This document shows, in pieces, positions 11,865 to 48,688 of a stretch of DNA of 64,000 nt. The notes under the pieces were generated by a model that saw only the letters and a program-made list of their open reading frames with translations, was not told where the DNA came from and did not search any database. Source of the stretch: Hirudinaria manillensis. Its lineage: Eukaryota > Annelida > Clitellata > Hirudinida > Hirudinidae. Position 1 is the stretch's first letter. Every line of letters starts with the position of its first letter. Both the position numbers and the translations under genes were made by a program. The stretch spans positions 6,687,501-6,751,500 of the forward strand of contig CM067536.1 in the NCBI GenBank assembly GCA_034509925.1, given 5' to 3'.

Positions 11865-13462
11865 TTTTTGGATTGATTTCCATGGAAAAGTCGTAGCAAT
11901 CTTACGCATATTTGCTTTTCGGTCTCTTGTAAATAATGAAGAAGCTTTGTTATAAAATCAAACGCAATTATCCAGATGCAAAGAATATTACAATTCGTTC
12001 CAATTATCTATTCAATATTCGAATTTAATAATTTTCAAAGCAACCAGCCCCAAAAGCTCAGAGCAGAGTCAACAAACCAGACTCAGTGATGTCTTCACTA
12101 TCCCAAACAAACGCCAACGTTCCTTCCTTTTGGTACAGGGTTTTTGCAAACTCACGGACCATGCTGAGGGCAATCCAGGTGTATTTTGTTTCGAAGAATG
12201 TCAATTATCTTCTCGCATTAGCATAATTAATTAATTATTTACATTACTATACACCAATATGTTATCATGGTTGTTGTATAATTAAAACATGAATTTGCCG
12301 GATTATTTGAATATTTAATTTTTTAAATTATTTGCCAAAGATTGTCGATCAGCCAATTCTCCAGAGCTTGAGGAACGTCAAGGTGAAGACGGACATGTCT
12401 AAGTTGCAATCTCAAAAATGCTTCGTTAGTGGCATCTTGACTAAGTGATCAATAAAAATAAAAATAAACTGCAATTAATTTCATTAAAACAACGTTATTT
12501 AAAATAATTAGTGAACAAAGCAGATAACTTTATGTTAAGATATGTATAATAATTCCACCTCTATTATTATTATTATTATTGTTATTATTATAATTATTAT
12601 TATTAAACACAACTATTACGATGACAACAATCCAAACCATAACATTAACATAAATAAATTATGTTTATTATTGCATAATAATTATTGTAATTCAACCAAC
12701 TTATTACTGCTATTGCCATAGGTTTCGTGGCACAAATAAAGCTCCAAGTTAATAATAATATTTTTGTTTTTCTCGTCAGACTTTCATGCTTGAATTTCAC
12801 TTTGACGCAAACGACTACTTTACAAATCCTGTCCTGACGAAAGAATATTTCGTCCAGCTAACTCAGAACAATCCTTCATCGAAGATCTGCACGATTAATC
12901 CACAAATTATAAAAAGCAGAGGGTCGCTAATATTTCGAATACTTAATGAATATCCATATATATTCACTTTATAATCCCTAATTAATATTTAATTAACATT
13001 AAATAAAATAACTGTAACAAGTCATAACGGTTGTTAGATGTGCTTAATCTTGTGCTTCTTGTTCTTGTCGGTCTTGAAGGTTCGGACTTCGATTCCTGTC
13101 ACGTTCATGCCCATAATTAAGCACATCTATGAGCTCATATTTCTACAAACAGTATTCAGGTTAATATTTTATAAGCGTTTTATACTAAGTTATTTGCATT
13201 TTCTTTTGACATTCAGTTGTCAGATTTACTGGAAGCCGGGCATGAACGTGACAGGAATCGAAGTCCGAACCTTCAAGACCGACAAGAACAAGAAGCACAA
13301 GAAAGTTGTTGTCAAACACTACAACAAGGAGTCTTTCTTCAACTTTTTCAATACATCAAAATGTTAGTCCATTCAGATAGCCGCTTTAAAATTATGAACT
13401 GGGAATATTAAAATAAAAACAACAACAACAACAATAATAATAATAATGATAATGATAAAATC

Positions 13463-13514
<52 letters not shown>

Positions 13515-14057
13515 AATCATAATAATAATAATAATAATATCTTTTTTGAAATTCAGATTCGGACAACGAAATATTGGTAAGGGAAAATATTTTTCTATTT
13601 GTTATTTTAAATCTTTATCGTCCTTTATTTCATTCAAAAGTTTGTTTATTTTAAAAGAACTGTTTGTATAAGTTTATAAATGTAATTACGACTTACATAA
13701 AATTATTATTATTATTATAATACAATTTTTACAATACAATTATTAAAAATGCCAAAATTATTCAGGACTTTATAATCAATTAGATCAATTATTTTCAACT
13801 GGTTAATGAAGTTTATTGAATTAATCATTATTATTGCTGTTATTTATCTGTTATTTTTGTTAGTCATGCTTGTAAATCAATCATTGCAGACACCGAAACA
13901 GAAAGAGGAATTGGAGGCCGACTACAACTTGGGCCGTCACATCAAAGAGCACATCGTTCCCCGGGCAATCTCCTACTTCCTCGGGGAAATTTCTGACGCG
14001 AGCAGCGGCGAATCGACCCCAACTTCGGCAAGCAGCTCCCGATCCTCTCTGAACTGA
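10836..14057 (+). CDS. Nucleosome assembly protein 1-like (NAP/SET family), 5' exon(s) not found
   Basis: A histone H2A/H2B chaperone of the NAP family. Exons supported by phase: 10836-10897 (5' limit uncertain), 11149-11284, 12041-12178, 12341-12424, 12780-12922, 13217-13362, 13557-13576 and 13890-14057, giving 298 visible residues. Recognisable family text: VPSFWYRVFANS, QPILQSLRNVKVK, FMLEFHFDANDYFTNPVLTK, GCQIYWKPGMNVT, ESFFNFFN and HIKEHIVPRAISYFLGE. The long dimerisation helix is in the second exon. No in-frame ATG lies between the upstream stop near 10803 and exon 1, so an initiator exon lies further upstream. The long acidic tail typical of NAP1 is missing; the protein ends in a Ser/Thr-rich stretch. 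One exon is only 20 nt. AATAAA is at 14231-14236. Confidence 0.85.
11829..11869. repeat. (ATTT)n microsatellite
   Basis: About ten uninterrupted TTTA/ATTT units in NAP1L intron 2. Confidence 0.9.
13035..13129 (-). repeat. Inverted copy of NAP1L exon sequence framed by 14-bp arms
   Basis: Bases 13048-13112 are the exact reverse complement of 13238-13302, which lies inside the downstream NAP1L exon. The 65-bp inverted copy sits in the intron just upstream. It is bordered by its own perfect 14-bp inverted repeat: TAGATGTGCTTAAT at 13035-13048 against ATTAAGCACATCTA at 13116-13129. Read by eye with no mismatch. Confidence 0.9.
13425..13541. repeat. (AAT)n microsatellite with internal duplicated block
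   Basis: Two AAT tracts, each preceded by the same motif AATGATAATGATAAAATCAT, giving a tandem arrangement just before the 20-nt exon. Confidence 0.85.
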
Positions 14058-19292: not shown

Positions 19293-20655
19293 TCAAGGTG
19301 CTGCTTGGAAAAGCTGAGTTTTGAAAAGTTTAATATTTTAGTTGGTATATATATATTTTTTTTGGATAAAGAGTTACCGTTGAAATTTTAATGGTATAGT
19401 GTTGTTATTGTTGTTGTTGTTGTTTGTGGTATTACAATACAAATGTATAGTTAATATCAATTGTTTAACAAATTTGGGCATGATTGTTGTGTTGAGATAA
19501 CTTTTGATCCCTTTGATTAATAGGAATTTTACATAATATATAATACTTTGTTACGTAATATTACATATTATATAACAAATTTATGAATGAGTGGGAATAA
19601 TGTTGTAGAAGTAACTTACTGTAGTTATTTTACATACATTAAAACTGTCACTTGTTTAATGAACGTTTACAGAACGCATCACATTGGAATTTAATGCAAA
19701 TGAATCTCTTAAAATCGATCGATTTTAATAAATTTTGATTAATTATCTCACGTATTATTTTGATAAATTATCTCTTAAATATGTTTGAGTTGGAAAATCC
19801 CAGCGAAGCCACGTGCCCAATTTGAACTTAATGCAAATGAAGGCTATTAAAAATCACTTTCAACTGAATTTTGCAAACAAAATAAAACTTACTCGTCTCG
19901 AGTATTTTATTCAAGGATTTCCGAAGACGTTTTTACAAATTAAGCTTTGAAATTGCAAAAATTACTTCAACAATTCACAGGGCAACTGACGGGCCATTGA
20001 TCATGAAATGTTTCTGAATGAGTCACTGTTACCAATCAATAACCTTCAACCCAACGTGTCTAGTGAGAGGACAACCATGTCGTTTTCTCTCTCTCTCTCT
20101 CTCTGTGTTTTGAAAACAAACTAATCTAAAGATTAATCAAAATCTTCTTTTTAATATTTAACGTCTCGGTCAGCGTTCACGACATTTTAAGAAAAAATTG
20201 ACGAGTTTCTGAAACGAAACCCACGTGAAATATTGGAGCTCAAATTATTTAATTCAGTCGTAAAAAATTATTAGAAATAAATTCAGTTTTAGTCAAATAT
20301 TTTAGACATTTTGGATAGCAATAGAGTTTATAAAAATTATTTTTATTACTAATTACCTTTATTTACAATCGGTCTGCATAAATTTTGATTTAAATGAAAT
20401 CATTATTTAATAAAAAGTAGATTTAAACTACAAATGTACGCTTGAAAATTATTACAATACAAATTTTTATAGAAAGATCAAATAAATTTTTTAACCTGCA
20501 ATATAAATTTAACACGTGTCTATTGAATGTCTTTTACAATCCCATCGTCAACTTTAAGAAGCGGAAGTTTCTTTCTCAACCTACGAGTAAGAACATCACA
20601 AAAAGCCATTTTCTCTTGAAAAGCAAACACCTCACTCAACTCGAGTCTAAAAAAG
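19293..20655. other. Intergenic between CRAL-TRIO gene and first ELOF1 copy
   Basis: Holds the promoters of both flanking, divergently oriented genes. A short CT dinucleotide run is at about 20088-20105. No supported coding region. Confidence 0.5.
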
Positions 20656-20904
20656 ATGGGAAAAAGGAAATCAGCGAAAAAGCCGGTGGCCAAAAAGAAG
20701 CTCACGGAAAAAATTGTCAACGCTTTCCAGTGCCCTTTCTGCAGCCAATTGAAATGCGAAGCCAAGGTGGACAAAATAAGGAAGATAGGTTACATTAAGT
20801 GCAACGATTGTGGAGAAGATTTCCAGACCAAGTCTCATTCTCTCACAGAACCTATTGACGTCTACAATGACTGGATTGATGCCTGCGAAGAGGCCAATGG
20901 ATAG
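20656..20904 (+). CDS. ELOF1: Transcription elongation factor 1 homolog, copy 1
   Basis: An 82-residue intronless copy of ELOF1, a Pol II-associated zinc-ribbon protein acting in elongation through chromatin and transcription-coupled repair. It has the basic N-terminus MGKRKSAKKP, zinc ligands in CPFC and CNDC, and the conserved end LTEPIDVYNDWIDACEEANG. The human protein is 83 aa. This copy is one residue shorter between the first CxxC and the following basic helix (CPFCSQLKC). ATG at 20656 matches the family start, and AATAAA follows at 20967-20972. Absence of introns would suit retroposition, but the family gene is tiny, so this is not decisive. Confidence 0.95.
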   Translation: MGKRKSAKKPVAKKKLTEKIVNAFQCPFCSQLKCEAKVDKIRKIGYIKCNDCGEDFQTKSHSLTEPIDVYNDWIDACEEANG

Positions 20905-22381
20905 ACAGGAATGTTTCTGTTCTTTTCAAGAGCTGCTGCATATTAAAATTGGACGATTTTGTTCTCAATAAACGTCTAATCTTCGCAAGTGTTAATTGTT
21001 TAAATAAAATTTTCTAAACTTTCTCAGACTTAAAATCCATTGTAAATACTCAGTCCTTCTTCTTTAAGTAAACCTAACAAAGGACTTTGTAAAGAGCACA
21101 TCACATTCAATATTATGTCAAAATATGATGTTACAAGAGCTGTTTCAAAGAACTTCCCTAACAGTTATTTAAGTCAATGCAATATAAACCGTTGACATCC
21201 AGGAAACTCGCCGAACTGGAAAATATAATATCAGTAATCAAGATCTGCTCTGAGCTGTCTTGTGTAAGGCGTTTTGGATGCGCATTGGAACAAATTTCCC
21301 AAGAGACATGCAGGTAGGTTAAATAAGGATATAGTTTTTACAAACAACAATTTTTGACGTAAAAGTGGCTGCTGAAAGGAACACTCACGTCTAAATCATG
21401 TATATTGATCTAAATTAAATTTATTAAACATTTAAATGCAGTGTTTCATACACGGTTTACTTTTATCTTTGATCCATTATGAATTGAACGCGCCCATGGC
21501 CAAAAAAAAAAACAACGCTGAACGTTCCAACGATAAAATGTTTTGCGTCTCTTTTATTCCAATTCAGGACAAAAGCGACTATCTTGTTTCTTGGTTAATT
21601 TTTAGACATTTTGTTTTCATAAATGAGTTGGAGTTCCTGTTTAATTGCATGCTGCTTACATAATTCCAGCAATTTGACGGCTAAGTTGTCCCCTGGCAGA
21701 CATTACAGTGACTTTTGGTCTAATATTTTAATCGTAACTAATTATGACTAATTATCCTCTTTGTTTATGAAAGATAAAAACGCTATTTGTTACAAAATGC
21801 TTTCTTGAATAAAAGTTTCAAACGAGCAAATTTTTGAGTGACCGAGCGTCACTGAGCGACACTAAACGTCGGTTGGAAGCGTCAGCGTCTCCAAAGTGAC
21901 GGCCTATCAACGTGGTCTTGAAGTCGAATTGAGGCCCACTTTTATTTTTTGCAAAGTTACGATTTGTGACGTGAGGAAGCTAATGAAATGTGAAATGTTC
22001 ACACCTATCCTCCAAAGTCCGTAAGAGAAAAGGTCAGATTATTAATGAATAATTATTTGGGAGAAGAAAGTTCGATACTTAGTATTGGAAATGGGGTAAT
22101 TGAGTTCTTAAGAGAGGCTTAGTTACACAAATTCAGCTTTTTATTCTAAGTTGAAACTTCGGCAGTGCGGTCATAATGCTTAACTGATACGCAAATTCTA
22201 TTATTAGAGATTTTGATAAGGAAAGAGCTCCTGTATATCTCTACGATTCTACGCAATCGACTCAATTTTGTTCGATAATTACAATTATTATAATGTAACA
22301 TCAGTTCCGTTATCCGACAGGATTGAAAGCTACGACGATAAAAGGCTAGAGAGTTTTAGCAAGGCAATACAAATCTTTGGT
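20905..22381. other. Spacer between ELOF1 copies
   Basis: No supported gene. Near 21836-21905 there is a cluster of GTCAC/TGACG-type motifs including the inverted repeat GTGAC-CGAGC-GTCAC. It might be part of the upstream region of the second ELOF1 copy. Confidence 0.4.
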
Positions 22382-22630
22382 ATGGGTAAACGCAAAACTG
22401 TGAAAAAACCTGCCCCCAAGCGCAAAATGACCGAGAAAATACAAAACCGTTTTCCGTGCCCTTTCTGCAATCTGCCTACCTGTAAGGCCGAGATCAACAA
22501 AGAAAGGAAAGTGGCTTGCATAATCTGCGAGAAGTGCCTGGAAAGTTTCCAGATGAAATCGCACGCACTCACCGAACCTATAGACGTTTACTGCGAGTGG
22601 ATAGATGCTTGTGAAGACGCCAATCGATAG
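22382..22630 (+). CDS. ELOF1: Transcription elongation factor 1 homolog, copy 2
   Basis: A second intact, intronless 82-residue ELOF1, in tandem and same orientation as the copy 1.5 kb upstream. Start MGKRKTVKKPAPKRK, zinc ligands CPFC and CEKC, end LTEPIDVYCEWIDACEDANR. Roughly 65-70% of residues match copy 1 by eye, so the pair is not a very recent duplicate, yet both keep all zinc ligands and the C-terminal motif. An upstream in-frame extension (from 22268) lacks an ATG and is not family-like. Both copies share the one-residue shortening relative to vertebrate ELOF1, which suggests duplication within this lineage. Confidence 0.93.
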   Translation: MGKRKTVKKPAPKRKMTEKIQNRFPCPFCNLPTCKAEINKERKVACIICEKCLESFQMKSHALTEPIDVYCEWIDACEDANR

Positions 22631-23126: not shown

Positions 23127-26100
23127 TCAAAAATCTTCCAGCGTTACAATTGGTCCAGCATCCATGTGAAACTCAGGAATTGCTAAATCGTAACTTATTC
23201 CTGCAATAACGAACAAGTGTTATGTCATCCGCAAATGTCAAAACAATGACTCGTTCACTGTTTTCATAACTATGTCACAGGATGTCATATCTATGTTGTC
23301 ATGGATTTGATGTCATATGTTGTGGAGCAAGAACAAGCGTTATTCCCAGGGTGACATGTGCAACAAAGTCACTAACTTTCAACACACATAGCAAAACTAT
23401 GAACCCGGATGCAATTTAAAATAAGTAAAACCCCAACCTGATGCTAGATTAGTCACTGTATAATAGCCTTTCATGGAGGTTTTAGGGACCTGAGATTTGG
23501 TACAGCTGATGTAAGAGAATTCTGTTCCTGGTCTAAATATTGGTGTGAGCCCTTAAAAGGAATAATTTAAAAAAAGCATAAATAATTGTATCATTAAAAC
23601 AATGTATATTATGTTTTATGTTAGTACAATAAATATAGGCATATATTTTAATATATGTTAATAATATTTTCTTAGTATAATGCATCTTACCTATGACACC
23701 AGGACCATCAACCACTCTCACTGAGCCTCCTTCGAAGACCTCCCAATGCCTCGTCTTCAGTTGGCAGGTCATTCTTTGGGACACATTCTTGTCCATGGTA
23801 AATCTGGAAGATTTTTGAAAATTTGAAGAAACCCAGTGAAAAGTTAGGAAAATTCCCATGCACCGACAGACGCAACAAACCATTTACAATTTAAACTAGT
23901 CATAATTACGGACTGATTAATCTCATAAATAATGTCAATAATAAATAATATAATAAAATGGACATAATCCTTCAAATCAAATAAGGGATTTAAAGCAAAT
24001 CCAAATTCCTTCAGAAGCCATTAATTAATAAGTAATAAGTAATAAACTGGACATAATCGACTTTAAGATAATAATAATTAAAAATACTGAGACAAGACGA
24101 TCAGACAAGCAACAAGAATCAAAACTCAGCAAGGGGTTCATCACCTGACAAGGTAGGCATAAACGTACGAGTCGCCTGATAACTCAGGCAAAAAGGCTGT
24201 CATGACATCGACTTTGACGTCGTAACTGAGAGCTACGGAGGACGGGTCCTTGTAGAATCTGAATTTTAATTTTCCTCTATCATCACGTGATTGGCCAGCA
24301 ATGCAGGGCGTAATCATAGCATTACAAGAACCTAAATTTTAACGATTAAATAATCAATTGCACGAATAACAAGGACAACCTGTAAACCCTTTCGTCGATG
24401 ATTGGAAAGTACTTTTCTTCCAATTTCTTTGCATAATCCAAGAAATAGTCGAGGAAGGAATTTGCTAAATCAATTAAGAATTAATAAATCTATTAAATTT
24501 AATAGTGTATTTATTAAAATATATTTCAACCAACCACGAGATTAGTTAAAAGCTCCCGTGCTTTCGGGATGCAAACAATGCAGAGAAAGCATCAGAACAA
24601 AACGTTTCATGAATAATTCATACCCGACTTCAAAGCCGTACTTCATTGGTCATTTAAATAAACTCATTATTATTTATAAATCCATTGGTTCCCCAACCCA
24701 ATATCAAGAAACTCCTAGATGTTGGAGGGCTTAAAGTGACCAAATTTCCAGACTCGAGAGGAGGTTTGTCTTTGAGAAGGCAGAGCATCCGAACGTTTTC
24801 ATTTCCCGTCACTGCAATGCAGGGAACACCAACACCCTATGACAATTAAGTCACAATTAAGTTGTCATGTTTTTTTTTGTTAATTACTGAGTATTGCAAA
24901 TTAATAATTACTGTGCATTACAAATTAAAATGTAGGTAACCTTCATCATTCTTACCTACTTAAATGACAATAGAGTTAAGTAATGGCATAGATTATAAAT
25001 AATATCGCAATTGAAAAAGTCAACATATGAATAAATAAACATACAGTTGCAAACTCCAAACAATCATAAATAAAATATGAATGAATAAATAAATAAATAA
25101 ATAAATAATGCATATTTTATATCCATGATAGCATAGCATGGTTGTGTTCCTAAATATGACCATCACATTTTCAATGACTTGAAAGCTTTGAATCTCTCTA
25201 AGTGCTGGTGAACTATCTCTCGTGAACTGTATCGTGCTAGGATCTAATTTACTTACTGTTTTTATAACTTTCAAAGGCAATAGACTCTCACTTCTGAAAT
25301 AATCATAATTCTGCACCACTCCAAATATCCTGCAATGCAAGGCAGAATTAGTACAGTGATTGAATTTGCAACTATGCTTATGCCATAATTGTTACGGAAA
25401 TAATAAAGTATTTTAAATTCATAAATAAATAGAAAAATAGATAAGAAAACATTTAGTCATACCAAACATGTTTGCCATAATTTATCATCAAATGTTAAGA
25501 AATTATCATTTCATGAATCTAATAAATAAATAAATAAATAAATAAATGAAAATGTAAAAAAAAGGAAATGTACTCCAAGTTATTTTTATGAACGAAACAC
25601 CAAACCCATTCCTTCTGCCTTTGATCTGTCCCTTGTGAAACCTGTAAACACATCTCAAGTCGTCGGGGAGGGAAATTCTGTTCTCAATTTCAAATTTGTC
25701 CAATTCTGCCTCTGACATCCCACCTATGACATCCCAATAATGAAGGAATGATTGTAGAGATTGATTATGAAAATGACAGGAAAGAATTAATGTTAAGAGT
25801 TTTAAATTATTATACCAATGGAAAAGCAGTTACTTTAACTAATAGCTAAGTTTCAAATAAGTTATCTAGTCATCATAAGGTAAAGACAATAAAATATTAT
25901 TCTGTTCAAATAATTTATTTTATATTATATTATATTATCACATAAAGGCACGGGCGAACCCCTCGCCTAACACAAATTGCTTAAGTAAACAAAAAGCAAA
26001 ACCCTCTACATATCAAACAAACAATAAAACAACCAGTCACATCAAATATTTACAATCCCCAAAAAAATCATCCAATAACATTTTGAAGATGTCCAGGTTT

Positions 26101-27780
26101 GGAGCACCGACAACCGACCGAGGAAGATCATTCCACTCTTGGACAACTCTATTGCTGAAAAAAAACTTCCTCAAATCCCTGTGAGCAATGTTTGTTGATA
26201 GTTTCCAATCATGGCCCCTCGTTCTCTCCTCTGGGCAAAACATAAGCCTAGGGCATAGGAATTCTGGTGCAGTTCCTCTGATGATATTGAACATCAATAT
26301 CAAATCAGCCCTTTTTCGTCTGTACACCAGGGAGGGCAGTTTCAAAATTTTTAATCTATCAGTATATTCTAAGTCTTTGCATGATTTGCACATATGGGTG
26401 AATCTATGCTGCACACTTTCTAAAGTATCCACCAGGCCCTTTCTGTATGGATTCCATACCTGCACAGCATATTCCAGATGTGATCTCACTAGGGCCTTGT
26501 ATACTGAAACCAAAGCATCTTCTGACAGATGCTTGAAGTTTCTATAAATGACTCCCAACATCTGGTTAGCCCTACTGACTCTCTGCAAAATATGCTCCTT
26601 AAATCCCAGTTTCGAGTCCAAGATGATTCCAAGATCTGATATTTTGTCTACCTTGGGTATCAAGTGAAGAGTTCCCTCTGTGTCTGTTACTGTGTACTCG
26701 TAATCTGCCTGGTGAGTTCCAAATTTCATACAGCAGCATTTATCCCAGTTGACTTTCATGCCCCACACATTATACCAATTGATGACCCTGCTTATATTAT
26801 GCATGAAATTATCAAAAAATTACATCTGCAAAAGAAATTGAACATCAATTCCACACACACAATGTGAACCTTGAGCTTGGCAACAAAATTGAGAGGCACT
26901 GCTAAATAACTAAATAATGCAAAGCATTTTTAATAAAGAAAATATAATAGTAAACTGAATAAATAGCTTTTTCTTTTAAGAGCAAAGGACTGCAACCTAA
27001 GAGCGACGAAGCAATTGCAGGATCTATTCGGTCCATGGTATTCTTGATGACTTCCCAAGCAAGCTTGACTTTCTTGTAAAAATGAATGTACTTCTTCTTG
27101 TCTCGATACTCTTGTATAAAAGCTTCCTTCCATGTCTTGTCATTGCTTGGCATGCTTTTGTGAAAAAAATGCAAAAACGTGAGCTCTTTATGGGATTAAA
27201 TAAATTTTAACATATTAACAAATCTTGGAATTAACCACCTAATTCAACCATTTTCTTATTAGCACTAGTAAACTGATTTTGTTACTAGAATAACATGTGA
27301 AATGTAATTCAAAGCCAAATTTTAATTTTGCAGTACATTATTATGTCTACATTTGAAAATTCTGCCATCAAATAACTGGAAGGCAATTTGGCAATCATGT
27401 GAAATATTACGTAAACTAGTTAACCCACTCACCTCATCATTAAGTAAATAGAGAGGAAATTTACAACTAGTCTTACTTAATGAATGAAACAATAAATAAA
27501 CCACACCTGCAAAGTCTTACAACACTTACAAGTTATCGTCCCAATAGTGCCTGCAGAGCTTTTTCCAATAAACATCATCTTCGCACAACTCAAGTAGTCT
27601 GTTACATGTTTTTGAACAACTGTAAATAACGTTAAACAAGGTGATTTCCATAATCACATATCTGTTCCATTAAACAATATGTGACACCAACTTCACGAAG
27701 TCTTTGTAATCAAGGTATTCTAATATCTGAAAATGAATGGAAGAAGGCAGATCCACAAATTCGACTTGAGAGATTGCCAT
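23127..27780 (-). CDS. FBXO3: F-box only protein 3 (F-box, SMI1/KNR4 and ApaG domains)
   Basis: Substrate-receptor subunit of an SCF ubiquitin ligase. Eleven exons: 27686-27780, 27530-27619, 26997-27154, 25606-25723, 25257-25329, 24713-24836, 24380-24464, 24145-24258, 23691-23803, 23438-23551, 23127-23200. They total 1,158 nt and 385 aa with consistent phases. The F-box is at residues 9-55 (VDLPSSIHFQILEYLDYKDF, then VYWKKLCRHYW). A SMI1/KNR4-like part contains ISLPDDLRCVYRFHKGQ and NYDYFRSESLL. The ApaG domain follows (KDPSSVALSYDVKV, TCQLKTRHWEVFEG, DGPGVIG, GYYTV, LAIPEFHMDAG). It lacks the long acidic C-terminal tail of vertebrate FBXO3, and the SMI1/KNR4 part looks shortened after exon 5. 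Intron 3 carries a CR1-like insertion. Confidence 0.93.
25917..26815 (-). mobile_element. 5'-truncated CR1/L2-like non-LTR retrotransposon fragment in FBXO3 intron 3
   Basis: The minus strand encodes a 255-residue open frame (26037-26804) matching the C-terminal part of reverse-transcriptase ORF2 (thumb and beyond: LGFKEHILQRVSRANQMLGV, then LVRSHLEYAVQVWNPY, then TRGHDWKL, then FFSNRVVQEWNDLP). The catalytic palm with FADD and the endonuclease are missing, so it is 5'-truncated and dead. The 3' end (plus-strand left end) has a short TATTA repeat tail at about 25917-25941, preceded in element sense by a GC-rich segment. It is in the same orientation as FBXO3. Confidence 0.85.
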
Positions 27781-28011
27781 GTCAACTAAAAGTAAACGGA
27801 GATCACAACGAATAATAATTTCGCAAAATTTGATGTTTTCTTAGCAAGGAAATGGTTCATTTTCAAAATCAAGCAAATAAAAACAACTAAAATATCTTAT
27901 GGTAAATTTTGGATAAGATTCACAATAAAAAAAAGTAGAAAAACACTCCAAAAATACGATTATGTTGATATACTTGAATCTAGTGTTATAAACCAATTTA
28001 TTGAATTGAAT

Positions 28012-29330
28012 TGAATTGAAAAAAAAAATCAGCACGGGCCAACGGCCCCTCGCCGAAACCGAAAACAAAAACAAAAACCAGTGCACCGACCCCTCAATCT
28101 AAATTGTAAATTCTATTAACAAAAAAACCGTCCAAGTTTCTCTTAAATTCCTCCACATCCCTTGACATCACAACCTCATGTGGCAAACTATTCCATTCCT
28201 GGACCACTCTGTTGCAAAAATAAAACTTTCTGCAATCTTTGTGGGCCAGTCTTGTCATCAGTTTTCTTTCATGTCCTCTGGTCTTGGAATATGTGCAGAC
28301 AGAAAGGGAAGGACAAACCAAATCTTTCATTCCACTTGTCAACAACTTAAACAACAAAATCAAATCAGCTCTTTTTCTTCTATAACACAAACTTGGCAAT
28401 TTCAGTTTCTCTAGTCTCGATTGGTAAGTAAGGTCCCTACAGGATTGTCTTAATCTTGTAGCTCTTCTTTGTACTCCTTCAATCGCATCAATCATTCCCT
28501 GTCTATAAGGGCTCCACACCTGTACTCCATACTCCAACTGAGATCTCACCAAAGACTTATTCAAACTCACGAAAGCAAAATCCGACAGATATCTAAAATT
28601 TCTTGCTATGATACCCAACATCATATTTGCTTTCTTAACCCTTGAGAGAATGTGTTCTTTGAAATTTAAATCTGAATCTACAATAATTCCAAGGTACGTG
28701 AACGAGTTGTAAACTGGAATTTCATATTTTGTTCCATCTGGGTCTGTTAGCTGGTAGCTACTCAAGTGGTGTCTCCCCCCTACATGCAGTGCACAACATT
28801 TGTTCATATTAACTTTCATTTGCCATCTGTTGAACCAATCAATTACGTTATCCACGTCCACCTGTAACTTGCTGCAGTCCTCCTCTTTGCTAATAACTCT
28901 ATATATTTTTGTGTCGTCCGCAAACAAGAATAAGTTTTCACAGACAGTGTATATGTCGTTAATATATATGAGAAACAGCAATGGACCAAGTACGCTGCCT
29001 TGAGGGACTCCGCTAGTCACAGGCAACGAGTCTGACAGCTCCCCACCGACCCTCACCTGGAAACTCCGGCCCGACAAATAGTTACCAATCCACACAACAA
29101 CCATGTGATGCACCCCATATCTCTCTATCTTGAAGAGTAGCTTTTCATGCGAGATCTTATCGAAGGCTTTTTCCAAGTCCGTGTAAATTACATCAACTTC
29201 ATCTCCGTCCTCCACCGCACTGGTAAGTGTATCCATAAATCTGAGCATTTGGAGAGTCGTAGAACGACTTATAAAAAACAGCATTTGATGAAATCTTATT
29301 GAGAGATTCAAAACAAAATTTAAAATGGTT
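28012..29330 (-). mobile_element. 5'-truncated CR1/L2-like non-LTR retrotransposon with reverse-transcriptase palm
   Basis: A single 405-residue open frame (28094-29311, minus) covers reverse-transcriptase motifs: YTDLEKAFDKISHEKLL, GVPQGSVLGPLLFLIYINDI and the catalytic LFADDTK. The thumb and C-terminal region are as in the fragment at 26037-26804. The N-terminal endonuclease is missing and the first 20 or so residues are garbled, so it cannot move by itself. The open frame and clean 3' tail of TTCAA repeats (28012-28033) suggest a recent insertion. It lies between FBXO3 and the first BTB gene. Confidence 0.9.
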
Positions 29331-29372
29331 TGTAAATGTTATTGATAAAGTTTAGTTAAAATTAAATACGAA

Positions 29373-31222
29373 ATAAAAATAAATGTAATTAAAAAGTAAT
29401 AAATTTTGTCATTCTATTCATAATCTTTCGTTCGCATTAATTCGAAGCTCTGTAAGAGCAAACTACAACATAGCACAACATTTCAAATTAACACAATTCA
29501 AAAGTTTACCATCACACTTAATTATAACTTTAGACAGATTGCAGTGAAGTTAACGTCGAATAATTTTACAATATGGAACATGTTATTTCCTTCAATTCAG
29601 ATATTAAAAAGTCGGCTTTTCTTAGTTTATCAAAACTGTGCTTTAGCGAGGAATTGAGTGATATCAAGTTTCAAATTCATAACAGAATTTATCCAGCACA
29701 TAAATGCATTTTGGCTGCAAGATCTGATTATTTCAGAAGCCTTTTGACTGGGAAATTTGCCGAAAATCAAAATGATGTCATTGAGCTGAAAGAAGTAACT
29801 CCTGACGACTTTGAACTTGGCTTAGGTCTCATTTATGGAACTATTCCTGATTCTAAGGTTGTGGATGAAAATATGGTCTTGCGTATTATGAAAGTTTCGT
29901 CCCAATTTGCCATCGTCGATTTGGAGAAAACTATTTCGAATTTTACTCTAAGAAGTCGTCAATGTTTTAATATGCTGAGTAACAATTCTAAGATGAATGT
30001 TGAAGATGAAGAGAAACATATGCAGAATATCATTAGATTTCTTTCACAACTTAAATCGCATTTTGACAAATTCCCGGTGCTATACAAAGACAAACAGTAT
30101 AGCGATGCAAAAATCAAAGTTGAAGACACGGTTTTTGAAGTCCATAAATGCATTTTGGCTGCAAGATCTGATTATTTCAGGGCTATCTTTGTAGGAAATT
30201 TTACGGAGAAGGAACAAGACATTATAGAACTGAAAGAAGTCAGTGTCGATGAATTTGAACTTTGCCTAAGTATTATTTATGGAACCATTCCTGATTTTGG
30301 TATTACAGATGCGGATATGGTCGTAAACGTTCTTATTATTTCACAATGTTTTCTCATCGACAACTTTAGAGAAATTGTTTCCAATTATTTGATAAAAACT
30401 CTGCGATCTGAAGATGTTCTTAAGATATTTCCCATTGCTTATTCTTATTCTTTTACAAAACTAGAACTTGAGTGTATTGAGAAAATATCTCGCTGTGATC
30501 TCCCGTTACTAGAACTGGATGACTTTTTGGATTTACCTGCTCCTGCATTAAAGAAATTTTTATCCTTGAACTGTCTATATTTTCCAGAAATAGAAATATT
30601 TCATGCGGTTCAGAAGTGGCTTAAAATCAATCCCGATGTTGACTCTCAGCAAGAAATCCTTGATTTGGTGAGACTTGGTAGGATGTCTGAGAACGAACTC
30701 ATGGATATCGTTCTACCTACAAATTTATATTCAGAAGATAAAATAATGGAAACTATTAAACACTTAAAGTTTCATCCTGAACATCTGAAAAGAGGGCTGC
30801 TGGTGAAAAATCAAAACCTCTGCTTGTTAATCGAAAGCAATGTGAGAGTCTTAACTTTTTCGGGGACATTTCCAGATGCCTTTAAGATTTTTGAGAGTGA
30901 ATTTAAAAGATTGGACTACATCACCCTTGGGTTATCCAAGTGCTATGTCGTAAATTTCTTCGAACTTCACACATACAGTGCGACAGAGATTTCAAGCTTC
31001 AAGATAAATTATTCTAATGCGACATTTCAATTAGAGGATTTGGATAAAATCGAGTGGAAGGATGCCCAAGAATATTATTCCAGAGACACTTCGAAAAGGT
31101 GCGATGTTATTAGGATGTGTATTCCTGAAACAGTCGTACAATACGTAGGAATACTTGCTTTTCAGAAAGAAGATAGAGCGCGCTTAACCATCAGAAAAAT
31201 GGAATGCTCATTCGTGATTTAA
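29373..31222 (+). repeat. Segmental duplication, unit 1 (BTB gene plus upstream region)
   Basis: About 200 bp of upstream sequence plus the whole reading frame is repeated in the same orientation at about 35171-37029. Similarity stops at the stop codon. A partial third copy of the upstream stretch lies at about 35047-35160. Confidence 0.85.
29573..31222 (+). CDS. Double-BTB/BACK protein, copy 1
   Basis: Intronless, 549 aa. BTB/POZ domain 1 is at about residues 15-125 (CFSEELSDIKFQIHN, HKCILAARSDYFRSLL). BTB domain 2 is at about 165-280 (YSDAKIKVEDTVFEVHKCIL, then YFRAIFVGNF). A BACK domain follows at about 285-400, then a C-terminal region of about 150 residues with no kelch motif that I do not recognise. 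BTB-BACK proteins are usually dimeric Cullin-3 adaptors; two BTB modules in one chain could act as a built-in dimer (inference). ATG at 29573 follows an upstream segment shared with copy 2. Polyadenylation hexamer at 31325-31330. Near-identical to the gene at 35371-37029 except at the C-terminus. Confidence 0.88.
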   Translation: MEHVISFNSDIKKSAFLSLSKLCFSEELSDIKFQIHNRIYPAHKCILAARSDYFRSLLTGKFAENQNDVIELKEVTPDDFELGLGLIYGTIPDSKVVDENMVLRIMKVSSQFAIVDLEKTISNFTLRSRQCFNMLSNNSKMNVEDEEKHMQNIIRFLSQLKSHFDKFPVLYKDKQYSDAKIKVEDTVFEVHKCILAARSDYFRAIFVGNFTEKEQDIIELKEVSVDEFELCLSIIYGTIPDFGITDADMVVNVLIISQCFLIDNFREIVSNYLIKTLRSEDVLKIFPIAYSYSFTKLELECIEKISRCDLPLLELDDFLDLPAPALKKFLSLNCLYFPEIEIFHAVQKWLKINPDVDSQQEILDLVRLGRMSENELMDIVLPTNLYSEDKIMETIKHLKFHPEHLKRGLLVKNQNLCLLIESNVRVLTFSGTFPDAFKIFESEFKRLDYITLGLSKCYVVNFFELHTYSATEISSFKINYSNATFQLEDLDKIEWKDAQEYYSRDTSKRCDVIRMCIPETVVQYVGILAFQKEDRARLTIRKMECSFVI

Positions 31223-35170: not shown

Positions 35171-37029
35171 ATAAAAATAAATGTAATTAAAATATAATAA
35201 ATTCAGACGTTCTATTCATAATCTTTCGTTCGCATTAATTCGAAGCTCTGTAAGAGCAAACTACAACATAGCACAACATTTCAAATTACAACAATTCAAA
35301 AGTTTACCATCACACTTAATTATAACTTTAGACAGATTGCAGTGAAGTTAACGTCGAATAATTTTACAATATGGAACGTGTTATTTCCTTCAATTCAGAT
35401 ATTAAAAAGTCGGCTTTTCTTAGTTTATCAAAACTGTGCTTTAGCGAGGAATTGAGTGATATCAAGTTTCAAATTCATAACAGAATTTATCCAGCACATA
35501 AATGCATTTTGGCTGCAAGATCTGATTATTTCAGAAGCCTTTTGACTGGGAAATTTGCCGAAAATCAAAATGATGTCATTGAGCTGAAAGAAGTAACTCC
35601 TGACGACTTTGAACTTGGCTTAGGTCTCATTTACGGAACTAATCCTGATTCTAAGGGTATGGATGAAAATATGGCCTTGCGTATTATGAAAGTTTCATCC
35701 CAATTTGCCATCGTCGATTTGGAGAAAACTATTTCGAATTTTACTCTAAGAAGTCGTCAATGTTTTAATATGCTGAGTAACAATTCTAAGATGAATGTTG
35801 AAGATGAAGAGAAACATATGCAGAATATCATTAGATTTGTTTCACAACTTAAATCGCATTTTGACAAATTCCCGGTGCTATACAAAGACAAACAGTATAG
35901 CGATGCAAAAATCAAAGTTGAAGACACGGTTTTTGAAGTCCATAAATGCATTTTGGCTGCAAGATCTGATTATTTCAGGGCTATCTTTGTAGGAAATTTT
36001 ACGGAGAAGGAACAAGACATTATAGAACTGAAAGAAGTCAGTGTCGATGAATTTGAACTTTGCCTAAGTATTATTTATGGAACCATTCCTGATTTTGGTA
36101 TTACAGATGCGGATATGGTCGTAAACGTTCTTATTATTTCACAATGTTTTCTCATCGACAACTTTAGAGAAATTGTTTCCAATTATTTGATAAAAACTCT
36201 GCGATCTGAAGATGTTCTTAAGATATTTCCCATTGCTTATTCTTATTCTTTACCAAAACTAGAACTTGAGTGTATTGAGAAAATATCTCGCTGTGATCTC
36301 CCGTTACTAGAACTGAATGACTTTTTGGATTTACCTGCTCCTGCATTAAAGAAATTTTTATCCTTGAACTGTCTATATTTTCCAGAAATAGAAATATTTC
36401 GTGCAGTTCAGAAGTGGCTTAAAATCAATCCCGATGTTGACTCTCAGCAAGAAATCCTTGATTTGGTGAGACTTGGTAGGATGTCTGAGAACGAACTCAT
36501 GGATATCGTTCTACCTACAAATTTATATTCAAAAGATAAAATAATGGAAACTATTAAACACTTAAAGTTTCATCCTGATCATCTGAAAAGAGGGCTGCTG
36601 GTGAAAAATCAAAACCTCTGCTTGTTAATCGAAAGCAATGTGAGAGTCTCAACATTTTCGGGGACATTTCCAGATGCCTTTAAGATTTTTGAGAGTGAAT
36701 TTAAAAGATTGGACTACATCACTCTTGAGTTATCCGATTGCCATATCGTAAATTTCTTCGAACTTCAGATATGCACCTTGAAAAAGACTTCAAGCTTCAA
36801 GATAAATTATTCTAATGCGACACTTCAATTGGAGGATTTGGATAAAATCGAGTGGGTGGATGCCATAGGATATTATTCCAGAAGCACTTCGAAGAAATAT
36901 GGTGTTAAAGTTAAAAAAATTAAGATGTGTATGCCTGAAACAGTCGTACAATACGTAAGAATACTTGTTCTTCAGAAAGAGGATGAGCCCCCTACTATCT
37001 ATAGAATGCGGTGTTCATTTGTTGTTTAA
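35171..37029 (+). repeat. Segmental duplication, unit 2
   Basis: Counterpart of 29373-31222: about 200 bp of upstream sequence plus the reading frame. Most of the unit differs by isolated substitutions; the last 300 bp are clearly more divergent, and codons have been gained. Confidence 0.85.
35371..37029 (+). CDS. Double-BTB/BACK protein, copy 2
   Basis: Intronless, 552 aa. It has the same architecture as the copy at 29573: two BTB domains, a BACK domain and an unrecognised C-terminal region. The first roughly 450 residues differ at only about a dozen positions, whereas the last 100 carry dozens of changes, including three extra residues (near KVKKIKMCMPETVVQYV). The promoter-proximal 160 bp are almost identical to copy 1, so both may be expressed alike. 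AATAAA at 37090-37095. Confidence 0.88.
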   Translation: MERVISFNSDIKKSAFLSLSKLCFSEELSDIKFQIHNRIYPAHKCILAARSDYFRSLLTGKFAENQNDVIELKEVTPDDFELGLGLIYGTNPDSKGMDENMALRIMKVSSQFAIVDLEKTISNFTLRSRQCFNMLSNNSKMNVEDEEKHMQNIIRFVSQLKSHFDKFPVLYKDKQYSDAKIKVEDTVFEVHKCILAARSDYFRAIFVGNFTEKEQDIIELKEVSVDEFELCLSIIYGTIPDFGITDADMVVNVLIISQCFLIDNFREIVSNYLIKTLRSEDVLKIFPIAYSYSLPKLELECIEKISRCDLPLLELNDFLDLPAPALKKFLSLNCLYFPEIEIFRAVQKWLKINPDVDSQQEILDLVRLGRMSENELMDIVLPTNLYSKDKIMETIKHLKFHPDHLKRGLLVKNQNLCLLIESNVRVSTFSGTFPDAFKIFESEFKRLDYITLELSDCHIVNFFELQICTLKKTSSFKINYSNATLQLEDLDKIEWVDAIGYYSRSTSKKYGVKVKKIKMCMPETVVQYVRILVLQKEDEPPTIYRMRCSFVV

Positions 37030-38612: not shown

Positions 38613-41600
38613 TCAAGCGAACCAATGATTGTAACTCACGCTGCTGGTCTGAGCCTTCAGTCTGAGTAAAGTTTTGTGGTCCAATTGATCGGCTTCTGAA
38701 ATTTCTATTACCGGTTCTTCTTGACTCACTGATTTCTTGTGGTCTTTTCCCAGCAAGCCACTGGTGAACGCGCGGAACGAAGACTGGCTGCCGAGATGGA
38801 CGCCGGAAGAATCCATAGGAAGACCGTCTTGTTTGGTCGGAAGATTGGATTGACTTCTTTGCAGCGATGAAGTCGAGAGCCGGAACTTATCTCTGAACAC
38901 GGAACCCAGAGACTGCTTGCTTTCTCTCATCGACGGAACTTGCAGGCGACTACTTGAAACCCTCGATGATTCGTTCTGGAGAGGTTCTGCTAGTGCAGCG
39001 TAGCTGACGTTGGGAGATCTTTGGTCATACTCTATCATCATCCGGCTGACGTCCGGATCATTTTGAGACACTTCTTGTGTCATTAGCCTCTGAACTTTAC
39101 CCATGCTTCTGTTTCCGAGTTCCTCCTCCAACTCCTCTTCATCGCTGCCTCTCGCCGGATAAAAGAAGCTGGCATTTTCGTCTTCCTCCTGGACATACGG
39201 TATTTGGACAAATTCCAATGCGTTCTGGAGCTCCTCTATTGTAGCCGAATCTCCTTTTTTGATCCACCAGCGAGACATGAGATCACGTATCTGTGCACCC
39301 GCGTCTTCTTGATGCTTGAGTTTGATGTCCGCGATCGTTCGGACGGTTTCTGCATCGCTCTGTATTCCGTCGAACAAGATCCATGCCAGATCGGGCCAGT
39401 TGATTTGGTCTACTTTGAAGAATAGCATCGAGGACGGGTGGTTGGCGAATGACTGGTTGATGGTACTCCTAGTGGGAGAGCCTTCGTGGAAACTCTTGTC
39501 AGTGCCTTCGACTGTCAACAGATTCTCCTTCTGTTCCATCCACTTCCTCTTTGCCAGACGAACGCTACGACCTCTGGCGATGACCCATTGGCTTCCATCT
39601 TTCGAGTCTGCCAAGCTATCGGCACGTCCACCCGAGCGCTGGAGGTAACGTCTGAGTAAAGTATTCTCCAGAGTGTCCAAAGCAGAACCGCTAGAAGGCA
39701 AAACAGAGAGGTACATGGTGTTCGACTTTTGGACGGTTTTCATGTCGACGCATTCCATCCAAAGTTTGGATAAGTAGCCGTACTTGGTGAAATCAACCGG
39801 ACCGGGCTCAGTTATTTGAGGGGGGAGATCTCCCGACTGATTTGCGTTCGTCGAACCTCGGATAGGGTAGAGACTCAAAGAATTGTACTGCCTCCTACGC
39901 CTCAACGGCTTCACGTAAGTCACTTTTCTCGTCAACGAGTTGTACAGGAATGGCGAAAATGATTTTGAATACGGACTCAAATTTGCCGGCAAACTCATGA
40001 GATGGTTATCTTCACCATCCATCTTCCTGTGTTCGTCATCATCGATGTTGTCTTCCTCGTCTGTGAAATCGTCCAAGTGCTCTCCAGAAAAGTTCGGCGA
40101 TTTATCCAAAATTCTATCTGGAGAAGCACCGTCCATCCTAGCTGAATCGTCGAGTGAAGGCAAAAATACTTGGCTGATTCTGCTCTCGTCGGCCTTTCCA
40201 GGGCCATTTTCACCAAAATCTCTGGTATAGAGAGGTTGTTGTGGCTTGTACACACCCCTCGTGTATACCACCGGATTGGCTTTCCAAGTCTTGCGCCACA
40301 CTTCTGCCTGGCTTTGTTGCAGCATCTCAAAGGCAGCTTGCTGTAGCGTTTTATTCGGAACGTCGACATTAAGAGGCTTGTCTTGATATTGTTTCTTCGG
40401 TAGATTGTCAAAGCTCACGGATCTGGTTTGTCTTCTCGGTCGTCTCTTCCATCGCAAGGTGTCGATTATTTCGGTTGTAGTGGTTACAGTTGTTTCTTAA
40501 ATGAAAAAAAGAATTTTTTACGTTTTCATTTATTAGGAAAATAGTTATTCCTAAAGTATAATAAAGAATAAGAAAAAACAAAACTATATAAAACAATTCA
40601 AATCATAGTTGAAATACCAGACGTACCATCGTATTGCTTTGGAGTGCTGGAATATTGCCTTGGGACACGACCGCCAGCTAAATTGTTTTCATCTTCTTTT
40701 GGACTGTCGATGACGAGATTGGGCAGAGTGACGGAGAGGGGCTGCTTAGAATGATCTTGGTCGCTGCTTATCGGAGAAGAGATTTGTCCGTTCCAGTCAT
40801 TTCTGTTTTTAATTATTAAAGGAGCTATCTGGCGCTTCGACGGTGGTTTAGAACCGTGCGTGGCATTCTTCTGATCGTCAGGAGAGGTCCAATTGCTGTC
40901 GGGAGGCAGTGGTTCTTGGCAGTCAAAATCAGTTTCGATGAATTGTCTGCTTTTTTCATTCTTTTCTTTGTCGTCTGATTTGTCGCCGTTTCGTTGTTTG
41001 GACTTGAATTTATCATCGATTATTGTGGTCGTAGTTGCTGTAACTTCTTCTAAATAGCCATTTCTCCCCTTTTTCTTGGATACTGAATGTTTTTTGTCCT
41101 TTTCGTAATCATCACCTTCTTCGTCCATTATTTCTTCATCTTCTCTTCGTGCTATTGGAGATTCCCTTTGTTTCCGATCTTTTCCTGACTTGTCCAATAT
41201 CTCTTCAATATTCATTCCGTTGCCTGATTTGTCTCTGCCTCTGTGTTTGGACTTCCATCTGTCCTCCGTTATTGTTGTCGATGTAGTCGTGGTTTCTTCT
41301 AAAAAGCCATCTTGCGACCGTTTCTTCTTAGATTTTGATCTTGCATCGTTTTCAAGTTCCTCCTCTTGATCTTCTACGACCTCATATTGTATGATTTGCT
41401 GCTTCCCTCTATTTTCTGATGTATCTGCTTTCTTTTCGATCTCTTTCGCATCTGATTCTTTTTGTCCGTGACGTCTTCCTTTTGATTTAAACTTATCTTC
41501 TGTTATTGTTGTGGTTGTGATAGTTTCTTCCAAATAGCCATCCCCTTCTTTCTTCTTAACTTTTCTGCGACCGATTCCTTCTTCATCTACCGGCGTTTCA

Positions 41601-44600
41601 CCGACTGTTTTCTCGTCGTCAAGAGTCGAATCTCTCACTTTTACATCTTTCTCGGAAAACGATTTCACTTTTCCGACTTCCTCCGAATTGTTTTCCTCCG
41701 TCTTATCTCGCTGTTTGAACCTCCACTTGTCGTCTGTTATTGTCATTGTCGTTACAGTTTCCTCAAAATGGCTATTCTCGGCTTTCTTTTTCTTCTTTTT
41801 GCTTCTCCTGCCAGCAATTCCTTCATCATTTTCCAGTTGGTCATCTAAGGCTTCGTCATTAGTAGATATTGGATCTTTTATCTTCTCATCAGCCTCAGGA
41901 ATATCGGGTTTCTTCTCAACTGCATCCTTCTTTGTGATCTTTTTACGTCCGTCTTCATCGACTTCAATAACTTCTTCGACGACAGTCGTTGTATATTCTA
42001 CCAAGTCATTTTCTTTTCCCTGTTTTGATCTTCTATTTTTTTTCTTTGCAGCGTTGTTTTCAATCGTTTCATCTCCAAAAGCGGTCTTCGTAACATCAGT
42101 GATTTCTTTTGAGCCTCCCTTTTTGTTCTTTTTGTCTTTAAATCGATTTTCATTGAATTCCTCAGCATCGAGATTAGTTTCAACGTTTCCGCCAGTTATC
42201 GATTTATTTCTCTGGTTTTCGTCTGTTTCTGTCAAATGGGAGATGCTCGTCTCCTTCTGATCTGATTGTTTCAGTGAAGGTTTTGTTTTCACTTTCTTTT
42301 TCTTGAGTTGTTGTTCTTCTAAATTGTCCTCCTTTGTGATTATGTTGTTATTTGTCATCACGCGGCGATCGTCTGTCAGTTCGTCGATGTTTGTTTCTAA
42401 ACTGTGGTCATGGAAATTGTCTTTTTGCATCCCCTTATCGGTTTTGTATTGCGGTTTTGGCTCCTGAGGATCTTCATGTTGTTGTGGGTCGTCGTTTGAC
42501 GACTTCTCGATTGTCGTCGTTTCAAAAGCTTCTTTTCGAGTCTTTGCTTTCTTCTTTTGTTTTTCTGCAGCCTCGTGGTCCAGGATTTCAGTGGTTTCGG
42601 TTGTAATTTCGGTCGTGGTCGATTGAAATGTGGGTCCTAGGTTGTCTTCGGATTTTCTGGGTTTCTTTTTACTTTTCTTTGATTTTCTCACGTTTGTATC
42701 GTCAATCTCTCCATCGGTTATTTTTACTTCAGTCTCCAAATCTTTGTCATTGATGCCGTATTTGTCATCTTGAAATTTGACGGTTGAATCCATAGTTTTA
42801 GCTTTTTTTATCCTCGACTTTCCCGTGTAGTCGGGACCTAAGTTGACGTGATATTCTACATAGTGAGATGTGTCAGGGTCTGAGGAATTGAAATCAGAAT
42901 CACTGAATGCGTTTTCATCACGAGCGGCATTCCCCTTTTCTGGAGAAAGAAATATTCCAGAATTTTCTGGAGGCTTCTCGAATTCTTCGATCTTGTGAGT
43001 TATTTCACCTTTCTTGCTTTTTTTTCTGGACTTTTCTGGTGTCTTGTCGTCAGTAACTGCTGTTTTATCCTCCTCTGTTGTCACCTGGAAAATATCGTCA
43101 ACATTTGTCTCTCTGGATCTGTTCAATTTATCCTTAGTCTTTCTTTTATTCGCATCTTCCTCGGCATAATCATCGAGTGAAGTTTCTTTGGATTTTTGAT
43201 TTGCCTGAGGACTTTCGCCTTTGTTGGATTTATCTTTTACTATGACGTTATAATATTGGTGACTTGGTTCTTCCTCGGGGCCTTTTACTTGAGGCTTAAC
43301 TGAGGGTTTAGACTCTGTGGAATCATCTTTTTGCTGGCCACTTATTTCTGGAGGAACATCAACAATTTGGTCAAGAGAAGACTTTCCCTCCGTGTCGCTT
43401 TTTGAGGTTTTTCTATCTTTCTTTGAGGTTGCAGATGATATGTCATTTGTAGGAATGGGATCTACTGGAATTAATACGTCCAAATTGTTTGCATCGTATG
43501 GTGTCTTTGGAAATTCTTCTGCTTCATCATTCTGCTTCTCATTAAAAGTTTGTTCCTGGACTGAATCGGTTTTAGCAGGCTTTGTTTTTCTCTTAGCTCT
43601 GTCCTTTTTCTTTTCACCTTCAAATTCGACATCGTTTGATACTGGGAAATAAAGATCCCGCTCCAGAGAATGGCTTTTGTCAACTTTAGTTTTTCTTTTA
43701 GGACCCCCTTTTTTCTTAATCATAACTTGATTTTTCTCAGCATCTTGGTCACCTATTATTTCTTTATCCTCATATGCAGTGACTTTAGTGTCTCCACCCA
43801 AATCGTTCTGTTTTGGAATGTGCGGTCTTTCATACTCAACCGAGGCACTTCTATCGATCTTAGTTTTTCGTTTGGAATCTTTTCTTTTGACTTTTTGATT
43901 GACGTAATAATTATCTTGTGAATTATTCTCATTATTCTCTTTTGCTTCATCGCCTTTGGTTTTGATGTTCGACATTGTAAGGTAAAGATCTTCGCCTTGA
44001 GTGGATTCATGGTTTTTAATTTTTGCTCCATCGGATGGATCGTCAGACTTGATTTTTATTGTCTCCTTGAAGGATGAATCTATTTCCTTGTCTTTGTCCA
44101 CCACGTTTTGAGTTTCCTCTCTTGGTGGGTATATTTTGGAATCATCAACGGCTTCTTTCTTCTTTTTAACACTCTCTTTTCTTTTTGGTGGTTCTATTAT
44201 TTCAAGAACGGCTTTGTTCTTATCCTTATCTAATGCCGCCAAGTCGTCTGCTGATTTCGAGTCTTTTCTGTTGACAATTACTTGTGGAAAGATGTAATAA
44301 TTATTTTGTGAAATGCCCTCATTATTTTCCGCTTCGACGATTGTCTTTCCACCTTGTACATCTTCGTCTTTTGTTGTGATGTTTGACATTGGAAGGTAAA
44401 GATCCTCGCCGTGGTTTTTATTTTTGGCTTCATCGGATGGATCATCAGATCTTGTCTCCTTTATGGATGAATCCATGTCTTTGTCCATTTCTTTATGGGG
44501 TTCTTCTTTGTGTTGGAATATCTTAGAATCATCGACAGTTTTTTTCTTCTTTTTAACACTTCCTTTTCTTTTCGGTTCTGAAATTTGTATCATTTCAACA

Positions 44601-47600: not shown

Positions 47601-48688
47601 GGTTCTCGATGGTAATATTTAGGATCGAAATATGAAGGCTTTGTTGGTGCTTTATTTATCTCAACACTTTCTCTCGAAACATTCTGTTCCGCTTTCGATT
47701 CTTCCATCTGTTTCGGTTTCTTTCTCTGACTGACTTCCCCCAGCTTTTCATCTGAATTCTCGCTTCCATCTCTTTTTCTGCTTGCAATGTTAGAAACGCC
47801 TTTGGAAGCGAACAAAAGTTGAGCGATCTTTGGGAAGCCATTGCTTGCTGCGAGATTGAGGGGCGTCAACCCATCGCTGTTTTCACAGTTCAGATCCACG
47901 ACAGTCTTCAGAAGAGCCAAGGCGATGGCATATCGGGCGTTGGAATCTCCTTGATCTCTTGGGCCGCTTAAAAGAAGCAAGTGAAGGGGATTGTTGTCCT
48001 TGCTATCTTTAATGTTAACATCGGCACCAAACTGATTGATTAAGAGCAGAATACAATCGAGATGAGCATGTTCAACTGATATGTGAAGGGGAGTCTTGGA
48101 CGAGAAAGAACTTTCGGTCGAAAGGGCAGGTCGTTCCGTCTTTTTGTTAACCCATGACTTGTCTGACGTGCAGAAGAGATTGATTAAGTGAACATGGCCC
48201 TCTCTGGCGGCTATGTGGATCGGATACTCCCCCGTTTCTGGAAGAGGACTCTGGCCACTACCCGCTCTGAGCAGGATCTCTACCATGGATCGATGTCCGT
48301 GTCTTGTGGCGAGATGGAGAGGAGGCAGGTTGAGATGGACTTCGTCGTCTTTCCCGGATCCCGTATTCCCTCTCAGATTCGGATCAGCCTTCTGCGATAG
48401 CAACAACTCGACGCTTTTGCGGTCATCGTTAATGACGCAATACTGCAAGGGCGTGTTGGTCGTGTTGATGTCTTGTAGGTAAAGTGGCTCTTTGATGGGA
48501 CTGTTAGAACCGTCAGGTGCGGCTCCAAAGGATAACAAGACCTCGACTGAATTCGTCAGTCCGCCCAATTTGCAGGCTCTGAGGAGATTTGATTGGACGA
48601 GTTCTTTGAAGCCATAGCGATTCTTTTGTCGCTCTAAGGCTTTCCTCAGTAGGAGTGGATCTTTCAGTTCTTGGTTCGTTATGGACAT
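38613..48688 (-). CDS. Giant ankyrin-repeat / Lys-Glu-rich / death-domain protein
   Basis: Two exons: 40627-48688 (8,062 nt, one of the largest exons here) and 38640-40495, separated by a 131-bp intron that keeps frame (GATG|GTACGT ... TTTAAG|AAAC). At least 3,306 residues. Residues 30-300 carry six to seven ankyrin repeats (LPPLHLATRHGHRSMVEILL, TPLNLAASNGF). About 2,300 residues of highly charged, probably disordered Lys/Glu/Asp/Ser-rich sequence follow, with internal repeats. Near the C-terminus is a death domain (INWPDLAWILFDG ... LMSRWWIKKGDSATIEELQNA; about 39190-39411). The end is either an unspliced SVSYNHWFA stop at 38613 or a splice at the strong donor AGC|GTGAGT after 38640. Ankyrin plus death domain recalls ankyrins, but no ZU5/UPA is seen. 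Function unknown; a cytoskeletal scaffold is a guess. Confidence 0.85.
39190..39411 (-). other. Death domain within the giant protein
   Basis: Six-helix death-fold pattern: W-PDLAWILFDGIQSDAETV, then IKLKHQEDAGAQIRDLMSRW, then KKGDSATIEELQNALEFVQI. The conserved tryptophans and the final helix pattern match ankyrin-type death domains, known from family knowledge. Confidence 0.75.
40990..41800 (-). repeat. About 80-residue tandem protein repeats, C-terminal set
   Basis: Four units with the core (Y/F)LEE(T/V)TTTTTITEDKWKSK occur at about 41010-41080, 41250-41320, 41485-41560 and 41725-41800. They are separated by about 240 bp, and a fifth degenerate unit is split by the intron (DETTVTTTTEIIDTLRWK across 40627/40495). 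Confidence 0.8.
44010..45040 (-). repeat. Recent internal duplications in the charged region
   Basis: Two families of duplicated segments. One of about 230 bp occurs at 44596-44813 and 44823-45034 (NREK(I/V)KRKDSR(R/K)KGKTDKT). The other, of about 350-390 bp, occurs at about 44010-44200 and 44400-44560 (SVKKKK..VDDSKI, DDPSD.AK.KNH). Long runs of identical bases indicate recent origin. Confidence 0.75.

Follow-up and report, generated by a model that had tools for sequence, protein, structure and literature searches.

The intron upstream of a NAP1-like coding exon in the leech Hirudinaria manillensis carries an exact inverted copy of 65 nt of that exon, joined flush to an exact inverted copy of 14 nt of the intron beside it. 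We conclude that the locus is very probably the scar of one composite inverted templated insertion of ~78 bp (13035-13112), a confidence that covers the general class and leaves end joining and replication template switching unseparated. All positions are those of the window, the whole stretch of 64,000 nt that was analyzed, and the features of the locus are as follows.

12923..13216, + strand: host intron, 294 nt (216 nt without 13035-13112), placed from the reading frame and splice motifs
13035..13048, − strand: second piece, a 14-nt inverted copy made from 13116-13129 (14/14; the copying direction is our reading of the geometry)
13048..13112, − strand: inverted 65-nt exon copy in the upstream intron (65/65; one genome locus found)
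13113..13115, no strand: ATA, 3 nt between the copy and the flank, whose first and last bases continue neither template
13116..13129, + strand: flank from which the 14-nt piece was presumably copied (14/14)
13217..13362, + strand: template-bearing exon of the NAP1 paralog, 146 nt, with a CAG/T acceptor, a T/GTTAGT donor and an open frame
13238..13302, + strand: template, 65 nt of the exon, exact inverted match

Structure of the inverted copies

Positions 13048-13112 are the reverse complement of 13238-13302 at 65 of 65 bases, with 125 nt between the arms, and positions 13035-13048 are the reverse complement of 13116-13129 at 14 of 14, with 67 nt between them. Both pairs are maximal, with no further base pairs inward or outward, and they have base 13048 in common, which makes a flush join with an overlap of one base. 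All templates of the two copies lie within 268 bp. A perfect match of 65 nt far exceeds chance, and in mononucleotide shuffles of the insert-free intron the longest perfect stem, with a gap of up to 100, was at most 12 in 200 of 200 cases. The sequence-only reading had described a perfect 65-bp inverted copy of a NAP1L exon bracketed by a perfect 14-bp inverted repeat. The bracketing repeat is just as described and the longer match is exact, with two refinements: its source is 65 of the 146 nt of the exon (offsets +21 to +85) rather than the whole exon, and the gene is a divergent NAP1 paralog, a more canonical NAP1 sitting on contig C9.

The two ends of the 65-nt copy both fall within exon sequence, so the copying requires no RNA intermediate, and nothing calls for a retro-copy or other RNA-mediated copy. 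The ATA at 13113-13115 could represent either untemplated bases or original intron. Read on the present allele alone, the overlaps at the three junctions are 0, 1 and 0 bp, a pattern that matches none of the described mechanisms strongly.

Host gene and intron

Exon ends were set by reading splice motifs, and the resulting series (12780-12922, 13217-13362, about 13557-13576 and 13890-14057) can be read as coding for the C-terminal half of a relative of NAP1 (nucleosome assembly protein 1). Exon 13217-13362 has the open frame CQIYWKPGMNVT...FFNTSK, and the reading frame of its 146 nt is given as CQIYWKPGMNVTGIEVRTFKTDKNKKHKKVVVKHYNKESFFNFFNTSK. The best phmmer match, PDB 11bd (nucleosome assembly protein 1-like 1), has an E-value of 3.6e-24 and covers residues 1-136 of the 157-aa translation, a query that includes this exon; the last exon matches Pfam NAP with an E-value of 2.2e-7. 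NAP1-family similarity is thus found across the exons. The donor of the host intron, GG/GTCGCT, is weak.

A more canonical NAP1 lies around C9:8,407,727-8,407,861, with 44% identity over the exon. The intron before its matching exon appears, by reading, at the same position and in the same phase as the host intron, so this intron probably predates the gene duplication. The 10-kb stretch that holds this paralog (L026) lacks inverted pairs of 21 nt or longer under limits of 3 kb for the distance and at least 20% for the arm GC. With an intron apparently at the same place in the C9 paralog and no such pair in its stretch, the intron also looks older than the insert.

Two further observations concern the surroundings of the exon. 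A frame at 13038-13367, whose ATG comes right after a stop, stays open for 109 residues from the insert through the intron into the exon frame, which is probably due to chance. Two microsatellites, one TAT-rich (12545-12605) and one AAT-rich (13464-13524), are 84% complementary over 61 nt and lie in the introns flanking exons 12780-12922 and 13217-13362; such flanking inverted repeats could favor exon circularization or pairing across both exons.

Elsewhere in the window, two related short frames in tandem (20620-20904 and 22220-22630) resemble transcription elongation factor 1 (ELOF1). Reverse-transcriptase-type frames occupy 26037-29338 on the minus strand, with a Pfam RVT_1 match (E 5.2e-24) for 28097-29338; 26040-26819 matches no Pfam family and by eye resembles the C-terminal part of the 28097-29338 frame, so the region is perhaps two related broken non-LTR copies. 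Two near-identical long frames lie in tandem at 29564-31222 and 35362-37029, each with an exact 38-nt internal direct repeat, and a Pfam scan of the first frame finds two BTB stretches and a BACK domain. The minus strand of 40598-48697 holds an uninterrupted frame of 2,699 residues with ankyrin repeats and a long tail rich in lysine and glutamate. Inside this frame is a 222-nt tandem duplication (44593-45039), and the AT skew falls to −0.42 over part of 40598-48697. Finally, 52510-52662 and 55491-55642 are inverted copies of each other at 77% over about 150 nt, separated by 2,828 nt and near related opposite-strand frames, perhaps an inverted gene duplication.

Rarity of the inverted pairs

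Used as a query against the genome (148,429,096 bases in 23 contigs), the 268-base stretch found only this locus, in both orientations, in a DNA search of 148.4 Mb; the search skips very common words, and a single locus is not proof of absence elsewhere. We surveyed inverted pairs in the window and 20 stretches of 10 kb, 264,000 bases in all and 249,000 without N, with 16 of the 20 stretches at set positions and the other 4 chosen for a reason. The survey for perfect inverted pairs (within 3 kb, arm GC of at least 20%, arms with N dropped) is exhaustive from 21 nt upward, and in this range the 249 kb hold a single non-microsatellite pair, the 65-bp one. A complexity-filtered survey of pairs of at least 14 nt, which leaves out arms below 15% GC and also removes the 65-nt pair, returned 18 pairs. 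The reported 14-bp pair alone has a gap of 0-100; 7 of the 18 are self-overlapping short palindromes and 10 have arms at least 311 nt apart. A general fold-back habit of the genome was not seen in the 264 kb (249 kb without N). The 65-nt and 14-nt features are best taken as one event, because two rare features touch, overlapping by one base. Literature listings on leech inverted repeats and template switching, on end joining in genome evolution and on the origins of hairpins and microRNAs show nothing on this locus.

Probable origin of the inverted copies

The locus has two hallmarks of an inverted templated insertion: the inserted sequence is an exact reverse complement of nearby sequence (65/65 and 14/14), and more than one local template was joined flush (two pieces with a 1-base overlap at 13048). 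Among the origins offered by the sequence-only reading, a template-switch product or small foldback insertion is the best supported. Read from the right, the bottom strand runs through exon antisense, intron, flank, TAT, exon sense (65 nt), flank antisense (14 nt) and left intron. This geometry is observed directly; the order, direction and enzyme of copying are what we infer from here on. A break or stalled fork would open the intron near 13034/13113, and a bottom-strand 3' end from the right side would then fold back and copy 65 nt of the bottom strand of the exon. The released 3' end would re-pair beside the break and copy 14 nt of its own flank (13116-13129), after which the new end would be joined to the left side at 13034. 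The footprint expected from Pol theta end joining is much like that of replication template switching.

A small DNA transposon, either a MITE or a fold-back element, with 14-bp terminal repeats and captured exon sequence would also give exact 14-bp inverted repeats framing the insert, and these repeats have TA as their outer bases, which is what insertion at a TA target site would leave. With at most two mismatches, the 14-mer occurs at 1,539 sites as opposed to 1,186 for its reversed control, a modest excess (30%) that may reflect base composition. Its exact sites, however, number only three in 148.4 Mb, namely both arms in the window and one locus on contig C3 that looks coding by eye. Of 61 sites with at most one mismatch, all of them on contigs C1-C13 in keeping with 13 chromosomes, the sole inverted pair within 1 kb is formed by the arms in the window; the other close pair, on C10, is 23 bases apart and in direct orientation. 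A genome search for the 14-bp arms around other inserts, as had been proposed from the sequence, thus turned up no second example among these sites. Since there is one other exact site and no other inverted pair among the 61, the 14-mer is not a transposon end. Terminal repeats common to other genomic copies, by which a MITE is recognized, were not found, nor is there a longer target-site duplication outside the arms (gttgt against tgagc); the 2-bp TA at both arm ends is indistinguishable from the repeat itself. We reject the transposon reading on the genome counts of the 14-bp arm and give it next to no weight. An artefact of assembly or library, such as a chimeric read or a polishing error, is likewise improbable. 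Amplified DNA is known to yield inverted chimeras as an artefact, and the locus is read here from assembled sequence. Against this, a nested two-piece insertion of 78 bp would be unusual for a consensus error, no further such pair occurs in the surveyed 249 kb, and the assembly matches the PacBio HiFi genome polished with PCR-free Illumina data that is described in the available part of PMC10671345. The same part reports 23.80 Gb of HiFi reads with a mean length of 18.73 kb and an assembly of 148.59 Mb in 22 scaffolds, of which the 13 longest measure between 14.76 and 8.30 Mb, together with a mitochondrial genome; another H. manillensis assembly is given as 157.5 Mb in 13 chromosomes in the accessible text of PMC10087013. 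If ours is the HiFi leech genome so described, the assembly error that had been raised as an option looks unlikely.

The identity of the arms was earlier taken to mean a very recent origin or strong constraint, which is stronger than the data allow: 0 differences in 65 only sets an upper limit of about 4.5% (95% bound) on how far one arm has diverged. Perfect identity fits an event that is young, though it need not be very young, and fits hairpin-templated correction as well. An older inverted copy could be kept perfect by repeated correction of this kind (quasi-palindrome to palindrome), a process described in the consulted sections of PMC8794818 and PMC7954356, but nothing at the locus requires it and plain youth accounts for the identity, so we see little chance of it. 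Equally doubtful is selected self-regulation, in which the intronic arm would pair with the exon in the pre-mRNA and masking, or double-stranded RNA acted on by ADAR or Dicer, would retune or lower the NAP1 paralog. The predicted fold of intron plus exon has an energy of −167.5 kcal/mol, whereas shuffles average −78.5 (z −14.8) and none of 100 reaches the native value, and the 65-bp stem is present in the minimum-energy fold, so the earlier statement that the transcript could form a 65-bp hairpin holds. For the 121-nt region with the 14-bp arms the corresponding values are −35.8 and −23.3. In addition, the acceptor and the first 21 nt of the exon sit in the 125-nt loop, and skipping of the 146-nt exon would shift the frame. 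Matches to the adenosine-deaminase domain occur at four places on three contigs, compared with none in 14 control genomes; the Pfam family also takes in tRNA deaminases, and enzymes able to act on such a duplex are probably encoded in the genome. These fold energies are nevertheless not evidence of function, because any exact inverted copy gives such folds and such a z-score anyway. The stretch around the C9 paralog, moreover, lacks such a pair, and Rfam found no matches in the window, where none were expected in any case.

Possible consequences for the host transcript

The simplest view is that of a tolerated intronic scar, with splicing of the intron probably intact and the 65-bp RNA hairpin an incidental result of the insertion. 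On present evidence, the locus is the footprint of a mutation and not a mechanism. Silencing, editing and exon masking are physically possible, as candidates suggested by the predicted fold. By geometry, the 14-bp hairpin and the full 65-bp duplex should be mutually exclusive, which brings up a candidate newborn RNA switch, a remote prospect, in which the 14-bp hairpin (13035-13129) would fold before the exon is made and hold the antisense arm in its loop. If this were true, a race between splicing and refolding would set the share of pre-mRNA that is masked, edited or diced, and one repair accident would have given the gene its own attenuator. The locus is a clean natural example, from an annelid, of how a single repair event probably left a coding exon with a perfect antisense arm next to it. 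Scars of this kind may serve as raw material from which hairpin RNAs arise, and this one offers a cheap natural test of the tolerance of the cell for a 65-bp exon-intron duplex.

Comparison with known systems

Hairpin RNAs, plant microRNAs for example, can originate when a target gene is duplicated in inverted orientation. The leech locus resembles these in being an inverted coding copy that could target its parent gene, and differs in that the copy is 65 nt long, lies inside the same transcript and is known here from DNA alone.

Pol theta, according to the available portion of PMC11292364, extends stem-loops from two terminal pairs, and templated insertions are inverted copies of adjacent sequence that may use more than one local template. 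The leech insertion is similar in its inverted nearby copy, several local templates and identity to the template. Unlike the inverted insertions of mammalian cells, for which the same portion quotes 3-30 bp, the leech piece is 65 nt long, and its junction overlap is 0-1 bp where Pol theta uses two terminal pairs; a break, too, would be presumed here.

MMBIR insertions are flanked by microhomology, as stated in the accessible part of PMC8421209. They share with the leech locus an inverted, proximal template, whereas the leech template is 125 nt off, past the 100 bp searched by the tool of that study, and its junctions are without clear microhomology.

Template switching makes perfect stems in one event (PMC8794818, in the sections available), and during replication it yields perfect inverted repeats (PMC8794818 and PMC7954356, likewise in part). 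The four-point model set out in these sections has one reverse segment where the leech locus needs two; in both, a single event produces a perfect reverse-complement repeat that is capable of forming a hairpin. The probable insertion scar described here is a known kind of mutation, in this case unusually clean and rather large.
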